Positions 2,501 through 9,698 of a stretch of DNA of 64,000 nt are shown here, one piece after another. The stretch's first letter is position 1. Each line of letters opens with the position of its first letter. The position numbers and the translations under genes were made by a program. Under the pieces are notes generated by a model. It made no database searches and was not told the origin of the DNA. It was given only the letters and a program-made list of their open reading frames with translations. Source of the DNA: Marinobacter fonticola (lineage in GTDB: Bacteria; Pseudomonadota; Gammaproteobacteria; Pseudomonadales; Oleiphilaceae); assembly GCF_008122265.1 (NCBI RefSeq), contig NZ_CP043042.1, forward strand, positions 868,001 through 932,000, written 5' to 3'.

Positions 2501-3514
2501 ATGAAAAAGACTCTGATCGCTTCGGCTGTAGCGGCGGCTACATTCTCCGGCGCTGCATTGGCGCAAGAATCCAACCTGCCGACCGTGTACGGTAACATTC
2601 AGTACGCGCTCGCCTACGATGCAATCGACAACGGCCCTAACAGCCTGGAGCATTTCGACAACGGCACTACCTTGGGCGTCAAGCACGAGCACGTGATCGC
2701 GCCGGGTTTCACGGGCTTCTTCAAGTTGGAGCTGGAAGGCATCAACGCTGACGATAAGTCGTACGAGGACGGCATCGACGACCTGGACGAAGCTTACATC
2801 GGTGTTAAGGGTGACAGCTTCGGTCAACTGTGGGTTGGTTCTGACGACTCAACTTACGAAACAGCCGTTGACTACATCGTTAACTTCTACGAAGTAGCCA
2901 GCCTGAACATCGGCGGTTCATACACCACTGGTGAAGGCGACCTGATCCAGTACAAGACCCCGTCTTTCGGTGGCCTGACCTTCGGCGGTGCCGTTCAGAT
3001 CAACGGCGACGGCGACGACCAAGCGGGTGGTGACAAGTCGTACCCGTACCAGCTGTCTGCCATGTACGAAATGAACGGCCTGACCCTGGCGGTTGCCATG
3101 GACTCTAACGACGGCAACACTGGCTACTCCAGCGGCTCTGCAGACGATTTTGATAGCAACGAAAATACGTACGGTGTTCGTGCAGCTTACGCACTGGATA
3201 ACCTGTTGGTGTCCGCTGAGTATCAGACTCGCAAAGATGCATACGACAAGGCCGGTGTTATTGGTGTTTACACCCTAGGTGCCAACCAAGTGTCACTGGC
3301 ATATGAGCTTCGCACCAACGACTATGGTGACGATGACAAGACTGACACCATCACTCTGCAGGCTCTGCACAACCTGTCTGACCACATGTACGTCTACTTC
3401 GAAGGCTACCTGGGCGGCGGCGACGATGTCTACGAATACGAAGACGATCAGGGCAACGAAGCCTTCTCTGACGAGCGCTCTGTTGCTTCTGTCGGCGCGG
3501 TTTACTACTTCTGA
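2501..3514 (+). CDS. Outer-membrane general porin (Gram-negative porin family)
   Basis: The 337-residue product begins with a classical signal peptide (MKKTLIASAVAAATFSG...), with probable cleavage after ALA at residue 21. The rest has alternating polar and aromatic stretches typical of a beta-barrel and ends in Tyr-Tyr-Phe, the usual C-terminal phenylalanine needed for outer-membrane insertion. It fits the roughly 330-residue trimeric porin family. The chain is very rich in Asp and Glu, including acidic runs such as GDGDDQ and DDVYEYEDD, suggesting a cation-preferring pore or salt adaptation. It is monocistronic, with a long leader upstream and a strong terminator downstream. Substrate is unknown. 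Confidence 0.9.
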   Translation: MKKTLIASAVAAATFSGAALAQESNLPTVYGNIQYALAYDAIDNGPNSLEHFDNGTTLGVKHEHVIAPGFTGFFKLELEGINADDKSYEDGIDDLDEAYIGVKGDSFGQLWVGSDDSTYETAVDYIVNFYEVASLNIGGSYTTGEGDLIQYKTPSFGGLTFGGAVQINGDGDDQAGGDKSYPYQLSAMYEMNGLTLAVAMDSNDGNTGYSSGSADDFDSNENTYGVRAAYALDNLLVSAEYQTRKDAYDKAGVIGVYTLGANQVSLAYELRTNDYGDDDKTDTITLQALHNLSDHMYVYFEGYLGGGDDVYEYEDDQGNEAFSDERSVASVGAVYYF

Positions 3515-3550
3515 TCCAGGCCTAGCCTTATTTAGAAGCAGTAACGAGTA

Positions 3551-3584
3551 AAAAAACCGGCGTCCTTCGGGCCGCCGGTTTTTT
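3551..3584 (+). terminator. Rho-independent terminator after the porin gene
   Basis: AAAAAACCGGCG pairs with CGCCGGTTTTTT around a short TCCTTCGGGC loop. The 3' arm supplies the T tract. It begins 37 bases after the porin stop and may act in both directions. Confidence 0.92.
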
Positions 3585-3646
3585 GTGCGTGCAATTCTGT
3601 AGCGGTATGCTCAGCGTCCGATCAGCAATCGTCGAGGGATTTTTTC

Positions 3647-4492
3647 ATGGCTGAAGAATTGGAAATCAAGCTGACCCTGGCGCCGGGCAGCGCCGACAAG
3701 GTTCTTGCCTGGGTCGCGGATAAAGGCTCGGAGGCGCTTTCTAAAAAACGGTTGCTGAATCGCTACTACGATACGCCAGACCAGGCGCTTAATCGGCACC
3801 GCGCAGCCTTGCGAGTCCGTCAGGCGGGCACCCATTATATTCAGACATTGAAAACCAAGGGTGAATTTGTCGAAGGCGCCCATCGCCGCAACGAGTGGGA
3901 ATGGCCACTGCCGGGCGCTGACCTGAACCTTGGCCTGCTGGCGGATACGCCCATTGGCGACCGGGTGAATCTGGCTGAACTCGAGGTCGTGTTCGAGACC
4001 AATTTCGAGCGCCAAAGCCTGTTGCTGGAAGACGCCGGATCGACGGTAGAATTTGCGTTGGACCAGGGCAAGATTTTGGCGGGAGGCGAGGCGCTCGAAC
4101 TCGCGGAAGTTGAGTTCGAGATGAAATCAGGCGACAGCAGTGCCTTGATAGCCTGGGCATCGGCGCTTGCCGGCCGTGTACCGACGTTCCTGAATCTGGT
4201 CAGCAAGGCCGAGCAGGGCTATTGGCTGGCCGGTTTAGGTGAGCCGTCGCCACAAGTCGAGGGCGACGACCCTGTTACATCGTTTCTGCGTGCGCTGAGT
4301 GTGCACTGGCTGACGGGCACGGCGAGTGAATCGCTGCAGGCTGCACTGGAAAAGATCAAGATGCTAGCCATCGAAGCGGGCCTGGAATCCCAGTGGCAGT
4401 GGGCGCGTGAGCAGGCATCGACCTCGCCGGGCCACCGCTGGATGTTCGAGCCTCAACTGATACAGCTCCAATTGGGGTTGCTAGAGGCATAG
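3647..4492 (+). CDS. CYTH-domain triphosphatase-like protein (YgiF type)
   Basis: The CYTH signature ExExK is present at residues 4-8 (ELEIK) and further charged strands such as RAALRVRQ follow, as in the triphosphate tunnel fold. E. coli YgiF, an inorganic triphosphatase, is 433 residues with CYTH plus a CHAD domain. This protein is 281 residues, with only about 75 residues after the CYTH part, so a full CHAD domain is missing. GAGGGA lies 8 bases before the ATG. The 3' end is odd: three diverged in-frame copies of its last 102 bases lie downstream in a tandem array. Likely substrate is a polyphosphate or nucleoside triphosphate; this is inferred from the family. Confidence 0.85.
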   Translation: MAEELEIKLTLAPGSADKVLAWVADKGSEALSKKRLLNRYYDTPDQALNRHRAALRVRQAGTHYIQTLKTKGEFVEGAHRRNEWEWPLPGADLNLGLLADTPIGDRVNLAELEVVFETNFERQSLLLEDAGSTVEFALDQGKILAGGEALELAEVEFEMKSGDSSALIAWASALAGRVPTFLNLVSKAEQGYWLAGLGEPSPQVEGDDPVTSFLRALSVHWLTGTASESLQAALEKIKMLAIEAGLESQWQWAREQASTSPGHRWMFEPQLIQLQLGLLEA

Positions 4493-4496
4493 TCCC

Positions 4497-4560
4497 GTAG
4501 GTTGGGCTGGCAAGCCCAACAGACCCGGCCCATCTTGTTGGGCTTGTCAGCCCAACCTAC
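4497..4560. repeat. REP-like palindrome, copy 1
   Basis: The outer arms start GTAGGTTGGGCTG and end CAGCCCAACCTAC. Each arm also contains its own small hairpin, GTTGGGCTnGCAAGCCCAAC in the left arm. The middle is GACCCGGCCCATC. The form is that of a paired REP element. Confidence 0.85.
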
Positions 4561-4565
4561 AGGCT

Positions 4566-4667
4566 GACTGGCATTGGGTGTCGACACAGTTATACGCCGC
4601 GAAGAGGCATCATTGGATGTTCGACCCGCAACTGGGCCGGCTACAACTGGGACTGCTCAAGCGTTAA
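4566..4667 (+). pseudogene. Remnant of a CYTH-gene 3' end, copy 1
   Basis: These 102 bases align without gaps to the final 102 bases of the upstream CYTH gene and end in the same frame with TAA. The translation includes HHWMFDPQLGRLQLGLLKR, against HRWMFEPQLIQLQLGLLEA in the intact gene. No start signal is present, so it is a remnant. Confidence 0.75.
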
Positions 4668-4729
4668 TCGGGTTTGTCCGTGGGGGGCGGTCGCCGGTTT
4701 TGTCTCTGTGGATTGCCCCTGTAAGTCCC

Positions 4730-4793
4730 GTAGGTTGGGCTGGCAAGCCCAACAATTCCGGCACATCTTGTTGGGCTTGTCAGCCCAACCTAC
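4730..4793. repeat. REP-like palindrome, copy 2
   Basis: Same 64-bp palindrome as copy 1 with identical outer arms. The spacer differs slightly (AATTCCGGCACATC). Confidence 0.85.
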
Positions 4794-4798
4794 AGGCT

Positions 4799-4900
4799 GA
4801 GTGGCGTTGGGTGTCGACACAGTTATACGCCGCGAAGGGGCATCATTGGGTGTTCGACTTGCAACTGGTCCGGCTACAACTGGGGCTGCTCAAGCGTTAA
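4799..4900 (+). pseudogene. Remnant of a CYTH-gene 3' end, copy 2
   Basis: Second copy of the 102-bp remnant. It carries a few substitutions relative to the other copies, such as WVFDLQLV in place of WMFDPQLG, and ends in TAA. Confidence 0.75.
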
Positions 4901-4960
4901 TCGGGTTGGCGGTCGCCGGTTTTATCTCTGTGGATTGCCCCTGTAAGTTGTGTCTGTCTC

Positions 4961-5024
4961 GTAGGTTGGGCTGGCAAGCCCAACAGACGCGGCAAATCTT
5001 GTTGGGCTTGTCAGCCCAACCTAC
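4961..5024. repeat. REP-like palindrome, copy 3
   Basis: Third 64-bp palindrome, with the same arms and spacer GACGCGGCAAATC. Confidence 0.85.
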
Positions 5025-5029
5025 AGGCT

Positions 5030-5131
5030 GAGTGGCGTTGGGTGTCGACACAGTTATACGCCGCGAAGGGGCATCATTGGATGTTCGACCCGCAACTGGT
5101 CCGGCTACAACTGGGGCTGCTCAAACGTTAA
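5030..5131 (+). pseudogene. Remnant of a CYTH-gene 3' end, copy 3
   Basis: Third remnant. By hand count about 65 of 102 positions match the intact CYTH gene end, with no gaps. Its TAA (5129-5131) overlaps the stop codon of the convergent channel gene (5128-5130). This may preserve the original convergent junction. Confidence 0.75.
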
Positions 5132-6309
5132 TCGGGTTTATCCGTGGGGGCGGCCGCCGGTTTTGTCTCTGTGGATTGCCCCTGTAAGTTGTGCCAGCGC
5201 TCGAGATAGGCCCGGTAGCGATCGAGTGCATCCACGAGTTCTTCCACCGGCGGGGTATCGGCCGATTTTACCAGTACGATAAGGCCTTTGCCTTCTACCT
5301 CTGCATCCGGCTCCGGGTGGCAGACGATTCGATCTTCCGGGTCGATGTAAGCCAAGGCTGTACCGATGCCGTGGCGAATCAGGGCGCTGACGATGTCGGC
5401 CCAGGTCAGTTCGTCCAGGGGCAATTCGTAGCGGTGAGGGTGATCGTTCTGGTAGTTGAACAAGTCCTCCAGCACCTTCTCCGTGCCGGGCGAGATAACG
5501 GCGCGCACCATGATTTCCGGGTAGGTCCGCACCGGCCTGATCACGGTTCGAATGCCCATCGAGGTATAGCGATGCCTGTCCTCGTCCCGAATGCACTCCA
5601 AAGTGACCCGGTGACAGAGTTTCAGGTCATTGAGCCTATGGGCAATGTTGAAGGTCACGCTGTCGGAATTGGGGTCGGTTTCGTCTGGCGCAAGCACGAG
5701 AATGTGACGGGCATCGATGATGTTGACCGCGCGCAGCGCCTGGGGGTCGGAGCCTGAGCCATGGTAATGCACCAGGCCCGCATCCCGCAGTTCAGGCGGT
5801 AGGCCTTCCGGATACTGCTGGGTGAGAATCTGAATCGGCGCGCTCTCGTAGCCCGGCACCGCCCGGATTTGGCTGGAGAGGCGCAGAAAATACTGCTGGC
5901 CGCCATGCTTGGGCGTATTCACGATGACGATGTGATTTTTCAATGTGTACCTCCAGCGTCCTGTCAGGATGCGTTCACGCCGATAGAACCGGTATTCGAT
6001 GTAATCGCTGACGATGAGTGTCAAGACCGTGATGGCCATGATGTACATCAGGGCAATGGTAAGCAGCCGCCCCCCGGCGGTTTGCGGAGAAATGTCGCCG
6101 TAGCCCACCGTCGCCAGAGTCGTAAAGGTGAGCCAGCAAGCCTCCAGCAACGATAGCCCCTCAAGCGCCATCATGGATACGACGTGAATGGCCATTAGGC
6201 TGAGCAGCGCAATCAGTAGGCGTTTGATACGCTTGCGTATCACCCCTGACATGGGAAGATGCGAGAAATGGCGCTCGGCGGTAATGGCGCGTCGGTCTTT
6301 ACTTAGCAT
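5128..6309 (-). CDS. Two-TM potassium channel with RCK/TrkA-N-type domain
   Basis: Inner-membrane ion channel. With the start at 6309 the product has 393 residues. TM1 comes first (LLIALLSLMAIHVVSMM), then the pore helix and the K+ selectivity filter TLATVGYGD near residues 65-72, then TM2 (LLTIALMYIMAITVLTLIV). A long cytoplasmic part resembling a nucleotide-binding RCK domain follows. The start is uncertain: TTG at 6399, ATG at 6309 and ATG at 6252 are all in frame and none has a clear ribosome binding site. The last 55 or so bases are repeated twice more in the adjacent tandem array. Ligand and gating are unknown. Confidence 0.88.
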   Translation of the reverse strand: MLSKDRRAITAERHFSHLPMSGVIRKRIKRLLIALLSLMAIHVVSMMALEGLSLLEACWLTFTTLATVGYGDISPQTAGGRLLTIALMYIMAITVLTLIVSDYIEYRFYRRERILTGRWRYTLKNHIVIVNTPKHGGQQYFLRLSSQIRAVPGYESAPIQILTQQYPEGLPPELRDAGLVHYHGSGSDPQALRAVNIIDARHILVLAPDETDPNSDSVTFNIAHRLNDLKLCHRVTLECIRDEDRHRYTSMGIRTVIRPVRTYPEIMVRAVISPGTEKVLEDLFNYQNDHPHRYELPLDELTWADIVSALIRHGIGTALAYIDPEDRIVCHPEPDAEVEGKGLIVLVKSADTPPVEELVDALDRYRAYLERWHNLQGQSTETKPAAAPTDKPD

Positions 6310-6596
6310 CGCGTCGAAACATCCGGTCCGGGCCTGAGAGTGACGTTTAGGGCGCCATGACGGCCTGTCGTCAGGATTAAAGTCGTGGCCATTATCCAAT
6401 AGCGTGGCAGGGGTGTCTCTAATGCCCTGTCTTTAATACTCTTGTCTTTATACCTTTGCGGCCATTCTGAAAATATAGGGAAACCCACCGCAAGTCTAAT
6501 CGCTTGACAGTGGGATTCGATGCTACGACGTCGATGAGCCGGCGGGCAACCCGCTATCATTAATGAACAATCAACAACAGAGAATTGCCTGAGCCT

Positions 6597-9506
6597 ATGG
6601 ACCCGTCTCAACGTGAACTGCCTCCAATCCCTGAATGTCTGCAGGCTGATGCAGAGGAGGCACGCCGTATTCTGGATCGCTCCGGATTGGAGCAGTGGTT
6701 AGATAGGGATGACGGCGTGCACCGCTCCTTGTGGGAGCGGGCGGCCCTCTACAGCACGTTTGTGCGGGAAACGGTCGAGCGCTATCCCGAGCAGCTTGCA
6801 CAGTGGCTTGAGTCGCAGCCGTTATCGGCAGCGACGACCCCCGAGACCATCTCGGCCTGCTGGCAGCGTTATCTTCAGGCGGTTACGGATGAAACCGGGC
6901 TGCACCGGGAGCTACGGCTGTTCCGCCGGGAATGTATGTTCCGCATTATCTTTCGGGATTTTACCCGCCTGGCGGACCTCGAGGAAACCATGCGCGCCGC
7001 CAGTAGCATGGCGGATGTGGCGATTGGCGGTGCGTTGAACTGGCTATACGCCGACGCCTGCGAACAGTGGGGTACGCCCTACGGCGAAGATCCGGCAACG
7101 GGAGAGCAGGCTCCCCAGCGGATGATCGTTCTGGGCATGGGCAAGCTGGGCGGCTTGGAATTGAACGTTTCATCCGATATCGACTTGATTTTCGCCTTTC
7201 CCAGCAACGGCGAAACCCGCGATGGCAAGCGCACGCTCGACAATCAGCAATTTTTCACGCGCCTGGGGCAGCGTCTGATTCAAGCACTTGATCAGTTGAC
7301 CGCCGATGGCTTCGTGTTCCGGGTGGATATGCGGTTACGTCCCTATGGCCAGAGTGGCGCCTTGGCCCTGAGCTTTGCTGCCCTGGAATCTTACTATCAG
7401 GACCAGGGGCGTGACTGGGAACGCTACGCCATGGTCAAGGCACGGGTCGTGGCTGGCGACGTTGAAGCGGGCCAAGTACTGATGGAAAGCCTGCGGCCCT
7501 TCGTCTATCGCAAATACATTGATTTCAGTGCCTTCGAGTCCCTGCGGAATATGAAGGCGATGATCAGCCGGGAGGTTCGGCGCAAGGGGCTGGAGAACAA
7601 TATCAAGCTGGGCAGCGGCGGCATTCGCGAGATCGAATTCGTCGTCCAGGCCTTCCAACTGATTCGCGGTGGCCGTGATCGGGAACTGCAGCAGCGCGAG
7701 CTGTTGAAGATCCTGCCGGAACTGGTGAATCTGGAACTTCTGCCCGAGGCGGTGACCCAGGAGCTGGCCGAGGCCTACGTTTTTCTGCGTAATGTCGAGC
7801 ACGCCCTGCAGGGCGTGGCCGATCAACAGACCCAAGAGCTCCCCGACACGCCGCATGAACAGGAAAGACTGGCGTTGATTATGGGATTTACGGACTGGGC
7901 CACATGTCACGAGGCGCTGAAGCAGCATCGTGAGCGGGTCGCGGCCCATTTCGCCGACATTATCGCCTCGGACGACGACGATGCCGAAGAGCAGGAAGCA
8001 AGCGAGCGCTGGCAGGAAATTTGGCTGGGTGAGCTGGACCTGGACGATGCGGCGAAACGTTTGGCGAATGTGGGCTTCGAAAAACCGGAGGAGAGCTTCG
8101 AACTGTTACAGAAGCTCCGCCAGAGTCGGTCCGCACAAGTCATGCAGACAGAGGGGCGCCGTCGGTTGAACCGCTTTATGCCGGTTCTGCTGGAAGCGCT
8201 GAGTGACGTGGAGGCGCCCTCCGAAACCCTCGGCCGGGTGCTGCAGTTGGTGGAAGCCGTTTTGCGCCGCACAGCCTATCTGTTGCTGCTGCTGGAGAAC
8301 CCCGAGGCCCTCAAGCAGCTTGTGCGCCTGTGCAGCGAAAGCCCCTGGATCGCGCGTCAGCTTGCCGAAACCCCTTTGCTGCTGGATGAGTTGCTGAACA
8401 AGGAAAGCCTCTATCACCCGCCGACCAAGGGGGAGCTCGAAGACGATCTGCGCCAGCAGCTCCTGCGTATTCCGCTGGAAGACCTGGAAGAACAGATGGA
8501 GGTGCTGCGCCATTTCAAGAAAGCGCACATCCTTCGGGTCGCCGCGTCGGAGCTGCGCGGCACACTGCCGCTGATGAAGGTGAGCGATTACCTGACCTGG
8601 ATCGCGGAAGTCGTGCTTGACCACGTCGTTGAGGTGGCTTTCTCCAATCTGGTCAGCCGCCATGGCTACCCGCAACAGGACGATGAGCGGGCCTGCAATA
8701 ACGATTTCGCCATTATCGGTTATGGCAAATTTGGCGGCATCGAGCTGGGCTACACCTCCGACCTGGACCTGGTCTTTATTCACACCGCCGATCCCCAGGG
8801 GGCGACGGGCGGCGACAAGCCCATCGACAATGCGGTGTTCTTCACCCGGCTGGGCCAGCGTATTGTTCATATCCTCAACGCCCAGACGCCATCGGGCCAG
8901 CTTTACGAAGTGGACATGCGTCTGCGTCCATCCGGCAACTCGGGTTTGCTGGTGAGCAATTTGCCCGCGTTCGAAAAATACCAGCGCGAAGATGCCTGGA
9001 CCTGGGAGCATCAGGCTTTGGCGCGCGCACGCGGCGTCGCCGGCAGTAAAGAGGCGCTGGCTGCTTTCGAGACGCTGCGTCACGACTTGCTGTGCCAGTC
9101 GAGGGACCGCAAGAAGCTACGCGACGACGTGGTCGACATGCGGGAAAGGATGCGGGAGAACCTGGGAACCGCGATTCGTGAAGGGGAGTCCACAGTTTTC
9201 CATATCAAGCATGACCAGGGCGGCATCGTCGATATCGAGTTCATGGTTCAGTACCTGATGCTGGCGTATTCCGCCGAGCATCCGGCGCTGACCCAGTGGT
9301 CCGACAATATCCGCCAGATGGAAGAACTAGGCCGGGCGGGCGTTCTGCCCGAGGAAGACACAGAGCGTCTGCGCGAGGCTTATATCACGCTGCGCTCCAC
9401 GATCCATCGCCGGGCACTGCAAAACCTGAATAGCCGCGTGGAGGGTGACGCCTTTGAATCGGAGCGCGCCTATATCTGGAGCGTCTGGCAGCGCATCATG
9501 GGGTGA
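6597..9506 (+). CDS. glnE: Bifunctional glutamine synthetase adenylyltransferase/deadenylase
   Basis: Adds or removes AMP on glutamine synthetase in response to PII, setting nitrogen assimilation. The 969-residue product carries two nucleotidyltransferase modules. The N-terminal deadenylase contains GMGKLGGLELN with SDIDLIF near residues 180-195. The C-terminal adenylylase contains GYGKFGGIELG with SDLDLVF near 707-722. Length fits E. coli GlnE (946 residues). ATG at 6597 is chosen over an in-frame TTG 12 bases upstream; neither has a strong ribosome binding site. Adjacent ilvE on the same strand is the order I recall in Pseudomonas. Confidence 0.96.
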   Translation: MDPSQRELPPIPECLQADAEEARRILDRSGLEQWLDRDDGVHRSLWERAALYSTFVRETVERYPEQLAQWLESQPLSAATTPETISACWQRYLQAVTDETGLHRELRLFRRECMFRIIFRDFTRLADLEETMRAASSMADVAIGGALNWLYADACEQWGTPYGEDPATGEQAPQRMIVLGMGKLGGLELNVSSDIDLIFAFPSNGETRDGKRTLDNQQFFTRLGQRLIQALDQLTADGFVFRVDMRLRPYGQSGALALSFAALESYYQDQGRDWERYAMVKARVVAGDVEAGQVLMESLRPFVYRKYIDFSAFESLRNMKAMISREVRRKGLENNIKLGSGGIREIEFVVQAFQLIRGGRDRELQQRELLKILPELVNLELLPEAVTQELAEAYVFLRNVEHALQGVADQQTQELPDTPHEQERLALIMGFTDWATCHEALKQHRERVAAHFADIIASDDDDAEEQEASERWQEIWLGELDLDDAAKRLANVGFEKPEESFELLQKLRQSRSAQVMQTEGRRRLNRFMPVLLEALSDVEAPSETLGRVLQLVEAVLRRTAYLLLLLENPEALKQLVRLCSESPWIARQLAETPLLLDELLNKESLYHPPTKGELEDDLRQQLLRIPLEDLEEQMEVLRHFKKAHILRVAASELRGTLPLMKVSDYLTWIAEVVLDHVVEVAFSNLVSRHGYPQQDDERACNNDFAIIGYGKFGGIELGYTSDLDLVFIHTADPQGATGGDKPIDNAVFFTRLGQRIVHILNAQTPSGQLYEVDMRLRPSGNSGLLVSNLPAFEKYQREDAWTWEHQALARARGVAGSKEALAAFETLRHDLLCQSRDRKKLRDDVVDMRERMRENLGTAIREGESTVFHIKHDQGGIVDIEFMVQYLMLAYSAEHPALTQWSDNIRQMEELGRAGVLPEEDTERLREAYITLRSTIHRRALQNLNSRVEGDAFESERAYIWSVWQRIMG

Positions 9507-9698
9507 CATGGGGTGATTGCCATGAGGTGATGAAAAAATCGGCGATGACATGGACGATGAACCGCTGGTAGAGGCGTGTGTCGATGGGGCAGGGGCCACT
9601 TCGTCCGTTCTGGTTTTCCTGCTAGAATGCCGTTTTTCCAAAGTGTTCCACGGCCCAGCCAGGGAACGCTCTCATCGCTTGTTTCAGGAGCAATAAAG

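Follow-up and report, generated by a model that had tools for sequence, protein, structure and literature searches.

Between two convergent genes of Marinobacter fonticola, one encoding a CYTH-domain protein and the other an ion channel, lies a tandem array in which the ends of both genes recur beside a palindrome. How did the ends of two neighbouring genes come to be multiplied there, and were the CYTH pieces copied from the adjacent gene or left behind by another allele? We addressed these questions in the window, that is, the whole stretch of 64,000 nucleotides that was analysed (positions 868,001 to 932,000 of contig NZ_CP043042.1), which belongs to a host genome of one contig of 4.54 Mb. 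Positions are those of the window, and genome positions carry the prefix C1.

Anatomy of the array

The original prediction described three units of 231-233 bp, each made of a palindrome and the 3' ends of two convergent genes. TRF returned 3.0 copies with a period of 231/233 at 4491-5193, and a repeat search of the window gave unit spacings of 233 and 231; both bear out the tandem triplication. Each unit consists, in this order, of the palindrome, the dinucleotide AG, 34 CYTH codons with their stop, and the end of the channel gene, which overlaps the CYTH stop at TTAA (Table 1). The palindrome measures exactly the 64 bp assigned to its REP-like sequence. The CYTH piece is gap-free and keeps its stop, as had been stated, and its nucleotide identity to the intact end, put at about 64%, was measured at 61-63%. 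The stop overlap had been noticed in the third unit; it is present there and is not limited to it, as all three units have TTAA. Only in unit 3 is the channel gene beyond TTAA intact.

The channel gene end is present in three of three units, at 56-63 bp per unit. That of unit 3 is the intact gene's own end, and a remnant-type CYTH end now adjoins the channel gene. The reading frames of both genes are intact. The Met start of the channel gene at 6309 was assumed from an alignment with relatives, its open frame running from 6399, and its TrkA_N domain fell just below the cut-off of the Pfam search. Between units, 4-8 of every 105 bases differ in the CYTH part, and 3-5 of every 64 in the palindrome. 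The amplification is therefore not recent, and an assembly artefact is made less likely by these differences.

Table 1. Features of the CYTH/channel locus and solitary copies of the palindrome
Feature	Position	Strand	Support
Intact CYTH-domain gene, 281 aa, stop TAG	3647..4492	+	Pfam PF01928, E 3.6e-26
REPIN 1, two inverted REPs, GTAG...CTAC, 64 bp	4497..4560	.	Repeat search and RNA fold
CYTH 3'-end remnant 1 (rem1), 34 codons + TAA	4563..4667	+	Gap-free against intact end
Channel gene 3' end, copy 1; TTAA stop overlap; AGT joint to REPIN 2	4664..4726	-	
REPIN 2	4730..4793	.	
CYTH 3'-end remnant 2 (rem2)	4796..4900	+	Gap-free against intact end
Channel gene 3' end, copy 2; internal deletion	4897..4952	-	
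Eight bases after channel copy 2, origin not simply derivable	4953-4960		
REPIN 3	4961..5024	.	
CYTH 3'-end remnant 3 (rem3); TTAA overlap with intact channel stop	5027..5131	+	
Intact ion-channel gene, Ion_trans_2 (stop at 5128); last ~60 bp = unit 3 channel piece	5128..6309	-	Pfam PF07885, E 9.3e-14
Solitary REPINs	C1:704361, 864086, 1265429, 1797318		

The palindrome and its family

The palindrome begins with GTAG, ends with CTAC and contains two inverted hairpins. The region of the first copy (4490-4570) folds as RNA into one long hairpin of -55.4 kcal/mol (z -9.68), with 0 of 200 shuffles as good. Judged by its sequence, it is of the REPIN, or GTAG-REP, design: two inverted REPs stand in one hairpin, and copies are dispersed over the genome. 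Seven 64-bp copies were found, three in the array and four solitary. The solitary ones match the palindrome only and carry no CYTH pieces, and the composite of REPIN and gene ends was found at this locus only. The units stand head to tail and include flanking sequence, as in a tandem REPIN cluster. A RAYT gene (REP-associated tyrosine transposase; NF047646, E 4.1e-58) lies at C1:4355203-4355505, bracketed on both sides by REPs of the REPIN stem with a longer loop, as expected of a member of such a family. The REPIN would be a non-autonomous element of a RAYT/REP system.

Other members and related genes were seen elsewhere in the genome. Further REP stems of this family, with longer loops, form three adjacent or overlapping stem-pattern matches at C1:2025216-2025297. 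The solitary REPINs in L005 (~1421-1640) and L004 (C1:864025-864225 and 1265429-1265532) have about 40 bp of common flank beyond the palindrome, with 91% identity over 104 bp; in L005, inverted ends of TGTCCC type lie further out, which gives the impression that a larger element may enclose some of the REPINs. Two more genes of the Y1_Tnp family are located at C1:3556922 and 3544419 (L091 and L092), and the stem start GGTTGGGCT is absent from the 3.3 kb around either of them.

The CYTH/channel junction in relatives

In the nearest relative examined (G004, taken as M. nanhaiticus D15-8W), the gene order is collinear, and the CYTH and channel proteins are 76% and 87% identical to those of the window. 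There, the two stops overlap directly as CTAG, with nothing between the genes and no array. The TTAA of the units is a junction of this kind. Stops overlap by 4 bp at 7 of the 57 loci with a channel match, the window's own locus and six contigs entered twice being included in the count. The proposal that overlapping stops represent the ancestral kind of junction is upheld by these observations.

The survey of CYTH loci covered 488-3006 bases downstream of the gene, with at least six contigs entered twice. It included one locus with a broken frame (L080) and left out two whose reading frame was too short (L081 and L086). No channel match was present at 22 loci, and two of the 57 with a match (L012 and L039, from the same contig) hold a gene piece only. 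Among the 77 loci searched out of 79, copies of the CYTH end downstream of CYTH were found at the window's own locus only; one marginal 18-residue match in L023 (E 0.002) was taken as chance. The array is absent from the relatives examined, which belong to other species.

At one locus (L097, from G005, taken as M. halodurans; reverse complement, ~9329-9531), a short piece behind CYTH matches window 6235-6311, the region near the start of the channel gene, and no other channel match was found there. The channel gene thus seems largely lost in this species.

An unrelated repeat family found away from CYTH genes, named at the outset as the observation that would tell against the gene-end reading, did not appear in 163 genomes of the family: at E <= 0.005 the CYTH-derived piece matched CYTH ends and the array itself and nothing else, and five weaker matches (E 0.053-0.075) lay above this threshold. 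A search of 101 family genomes gave a match in five, and those in G002, G006 and G013 were confined to the palindrome. We therefore rejected a repeat family that is spread over the genome independently of CYTH, since the CYTH/channel part matches only this locus, the genome's own intact CYTH end and the CYTH ends or junction of relatives.

Which allele the remnants represent

Two further candidates were rejected. A CYTH paralogue as the source is contradicted by the presence of one CYTH gene per genome in six of six genus genomes. Chance resemblance was ruled out by codon-shuffles and by the mutation simulations described below; the remnant has 66 of 105 identities with the CYTH end, a number that 2000 codon-shuffles, scored at any offset of unit 3, never brought above 52.

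Rem3 differs from the intact end at 38 of 102 nucleotides and 17 of 34 amino acids (rem1 and rem2 at 40 of 102 nucleotides each) and from G004 at 36 of 102 nucleotides, whereas the intact end and G004 differ at 22. It is therefore the remnant that stands apart, the intact end being closer to the relative. In residues, the intact end resembles P0002 and P0003, the latter a named M. nanhaiticus protein, at 25 of 34 each, and the remnant stands at 15-18 of 34 against the seven relatives compared and at 17 of 34 against the intact end. This reverses the original prediction, which had made the intact end the odd one out.

These distances bear on an explanation that requires no donor. The remnant could be an old tandem copy of the genome's own CYTH end, formed without foreign DNA near the M. 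nanhaiticus split, when the polymerase slipped or switched template at the REPIN hairpin, and decayed without selection before amplification. Its best pairwise match does lie in its own genome, at the intact end (39.1 bits vs 30.1 for the next genomes), as this explanation would have it. However, rem3 is no nearer to the intact end than to G004, and it shares ten bases with G004 alone, compared with eight with the intact end alone. Moreover, where the intact end and G004 agree against rem3 (24 bases), an outgroup has the base of rem3 at 15, with 10.0 expected (P 0.017).

The amino acid replacements give a strong signal. Among the 17 replacements of rem3, 13 are residues found in seven relatives, and 11 are found in the four more distant of these. 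Random mutation of the intact end gave means of 19% and 13%, and neither observed fraction was attained in any of the 2953 stop-free simulations. As an internal control, changes private to one unit were found in relatives in one of six cases (Fisher p 0.018), and seven real orthologues, each scored against one relative fewer, reached 37-63% in residue sharing. From these values, the sharing probably dates from a time when the remnant sequence still functioned as a gene, and the later, unit-private changes look neutral. A copy decaying from the start fits this poorly; moreover, the frame is open, an outcome expected in 14.7% of cases after 38 random changes. Unselected decay nevertheless finds some room in the codon positions: rem3-intact differences fall at 13, 10 and 15 (third-position excess P 0.21), and the deficit of amino acid changes is weak (P 0.012, 0.056 and 0.017 for rem3, rem2 and rem1). 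Because of this near-flat spectrum and weak deficit, part of the divergence may be neutral decay.

A tree of intact and remnant ends had been proposed as a check. In a maximum likelihood tree of 12 chosen proteins with rem3 as the only remnant, the clade that holds the intact gene excludes rem3 (UFBoot 93). A sister relationship of rem3 and the intact end is, however, not rejected by the AU test (p = 0.119, delta lnL 9.2, 34 codons being little data), a result to which self-duplication can also appeal. The corresponding p values are 0.146 for rem3 as sister of P0004 and 0.325 for rem3 as a clade member. No match closer than the genome's own intact end was found in 163 family genomes, nor was a closer donor found among the 120 protein matches listed out of 597, the window's own included. 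On balance, we consider self-duplication with decay unlikely, and we hold with fair confidence that the remnant derives from another, once-functional and diverged CYTH allele. Its partner, the channel gene, is not clearly foreign, since its tail ends in PTDKPD, as in the M. nanhaiticus group when aligned with relatives.

A proposed origin of the array

The scenario that we favour, with somewhat more confidence than doubt, combines REPIN insertion, allele exchange and tandem amplification, and is neutral as to the direction of exchange. A REPIN would have come to lie immediately after the CYTH stop, at a point where the CYTH and channel genes once met at overlapping stops. Recombination between two diverged CYTH alleles would have followed, presumably one-sided, with one joint made by homology and the other, at the edge of the REPIN, illegitimate. 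The product would have been an intact CYTH gene, the REPIN, and then 34 terminal codons from the other allele, which kept their connection to the channel gene. Tandem amplification to three copies would then have taken in everything between the start of the REPIN and a point about 60 bp inside the channel gene, and the copies would have drifted since, to the 4-8 differences per 105 bp seen in the CYTH part.

The joints between units fit this amplification to different degrees. The first is explained by a 3-bp microhomology, AGT, common to CATAGTCCCGTAG and TGTAAGTTGTG; the same AGT that links channel copy 1 to REPIN 2 is also found behind the intact CYTH stop. Via AGT, the joint, CTGTAAGT followed by CCCGTAGG, can be assembled from CATAGTCCCGTAGG, which follows the intact CYTH stop, and CTGTAAGTTGTG of the channel gene. 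Simple microhomology does not account for the sequence of the second joint.

Of the two alternatives offered in the original prediction, remnants from another allele are retained with the reservations above, while replacement of the intact end is one of two fitting directions. In that direction, the remnant would be native, and one-sided homologous recombination would have brought in the intact CYTH gene, together with the REPIN, from a donor resembling M. nanhaiticus. In the units, overlapping stops do still mark the junction with the channel gene, whose tail is of the local clade type, as such an import would leave them. Yet the similarity of the intact CYTH gene to G004 shows no break along the gene, and the gene relates to G004 and G003 much as its neighbours do; it therefore looks vertically inherited. 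Import of the intact gene is, in our view, a possible but somewhat doubtful version of the scenario.

A function for the array is not needed to explain it, and no physiological importance is evident. A silent store of an alternative CYTH C-terminus, switched in by recombination, or a selected bidirectional terminator might be suspected from the frame and stops preserved in three of three copies, from the very stable hairpin, and from the position of REPs in REP-rich genomes, mostly between unidirectional and convergent genes according to passages of PMC3733652. Both ideas are highly improbable. The longest exact identity between remnant and intact end is 11 bp, unit-private changes look unconstrained, and no comparable store was seen at the other CYTH loci searched. 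No intrinsic terminators or sigma-70-type promoters were found in 4300-5400 (shuffles give 0.9 and 0.4), and no known RNA family reached the gathering threshold in 3400-6600. Any effect of the hairpins would at most concern the 3' ends of mRNAs.

The events proposed here are mostly ordinary, and the locus is probably an informative fossil of DNA exchange, in which three steps (repeat insertion, allele exchange and tandem amplification) can be read at one place. It suggests that remains of displaced alleles may persist next to REPINs, a possibility open to a survey of many genomes. A bolder generalization, to which we give little credence, is that REPIN edges serve as joints for one-sided allele replacement: DNA entering the cell would recombine by homology within one gene and be joined illegitimately at a REPIN, the displaced gene end being left behind and multiplied by REPIN amplification; if true, REPIN arrays would preserve displaced allele ends that are otherwise lost.

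Comparison with known systems

Tandemly repeated REPIN clusters that include flanking DNA are described in passages of PMC3116915 (Bertels and Rainey 2011) and PMC3733652. The former reports hundreds of REPINs in Pseudomonas fluorescens SBW25, whereas they are few here. In common with the clusters presented in that paper, our array has an inverted REP doublet, and REPs of the same stem lie beside a RAYT gene. Unlike them, it does not adjoin the RAYT, and two convergent genes supply its flanks with their 3' ends, of which one probably comes from an allele other than that of the adjacent intact gene.

The GTAG-tagged REP families treated in PMC3733652, whose main text contains no occurrence of "Marinobacter", share with our REPIN the GTAG at the outer ends of the palindrome, REP dimers, a position between convergent genes near both 3' ends and clusters tandemly reiterated with their flanks; only seven REPIN copies are present here, which sets this genome apart from the families in those passages. 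Among the matches listed from the open-licence PMC literature, no REP array was found that contains gene-end remnants of a different allele. Homology-facilitated illegitimate recombination, as outlined in PMC3240628, has a homologous joint at one end of the incoming DNA and an illegitimate one at the other, as we infer here; unlike that system, this locus is tied to the process by inference only. Overall, the locus is a tandem REPIN cluster with flanks, of a known kind, and what makes it special is the likely origin of one flank from another allele.
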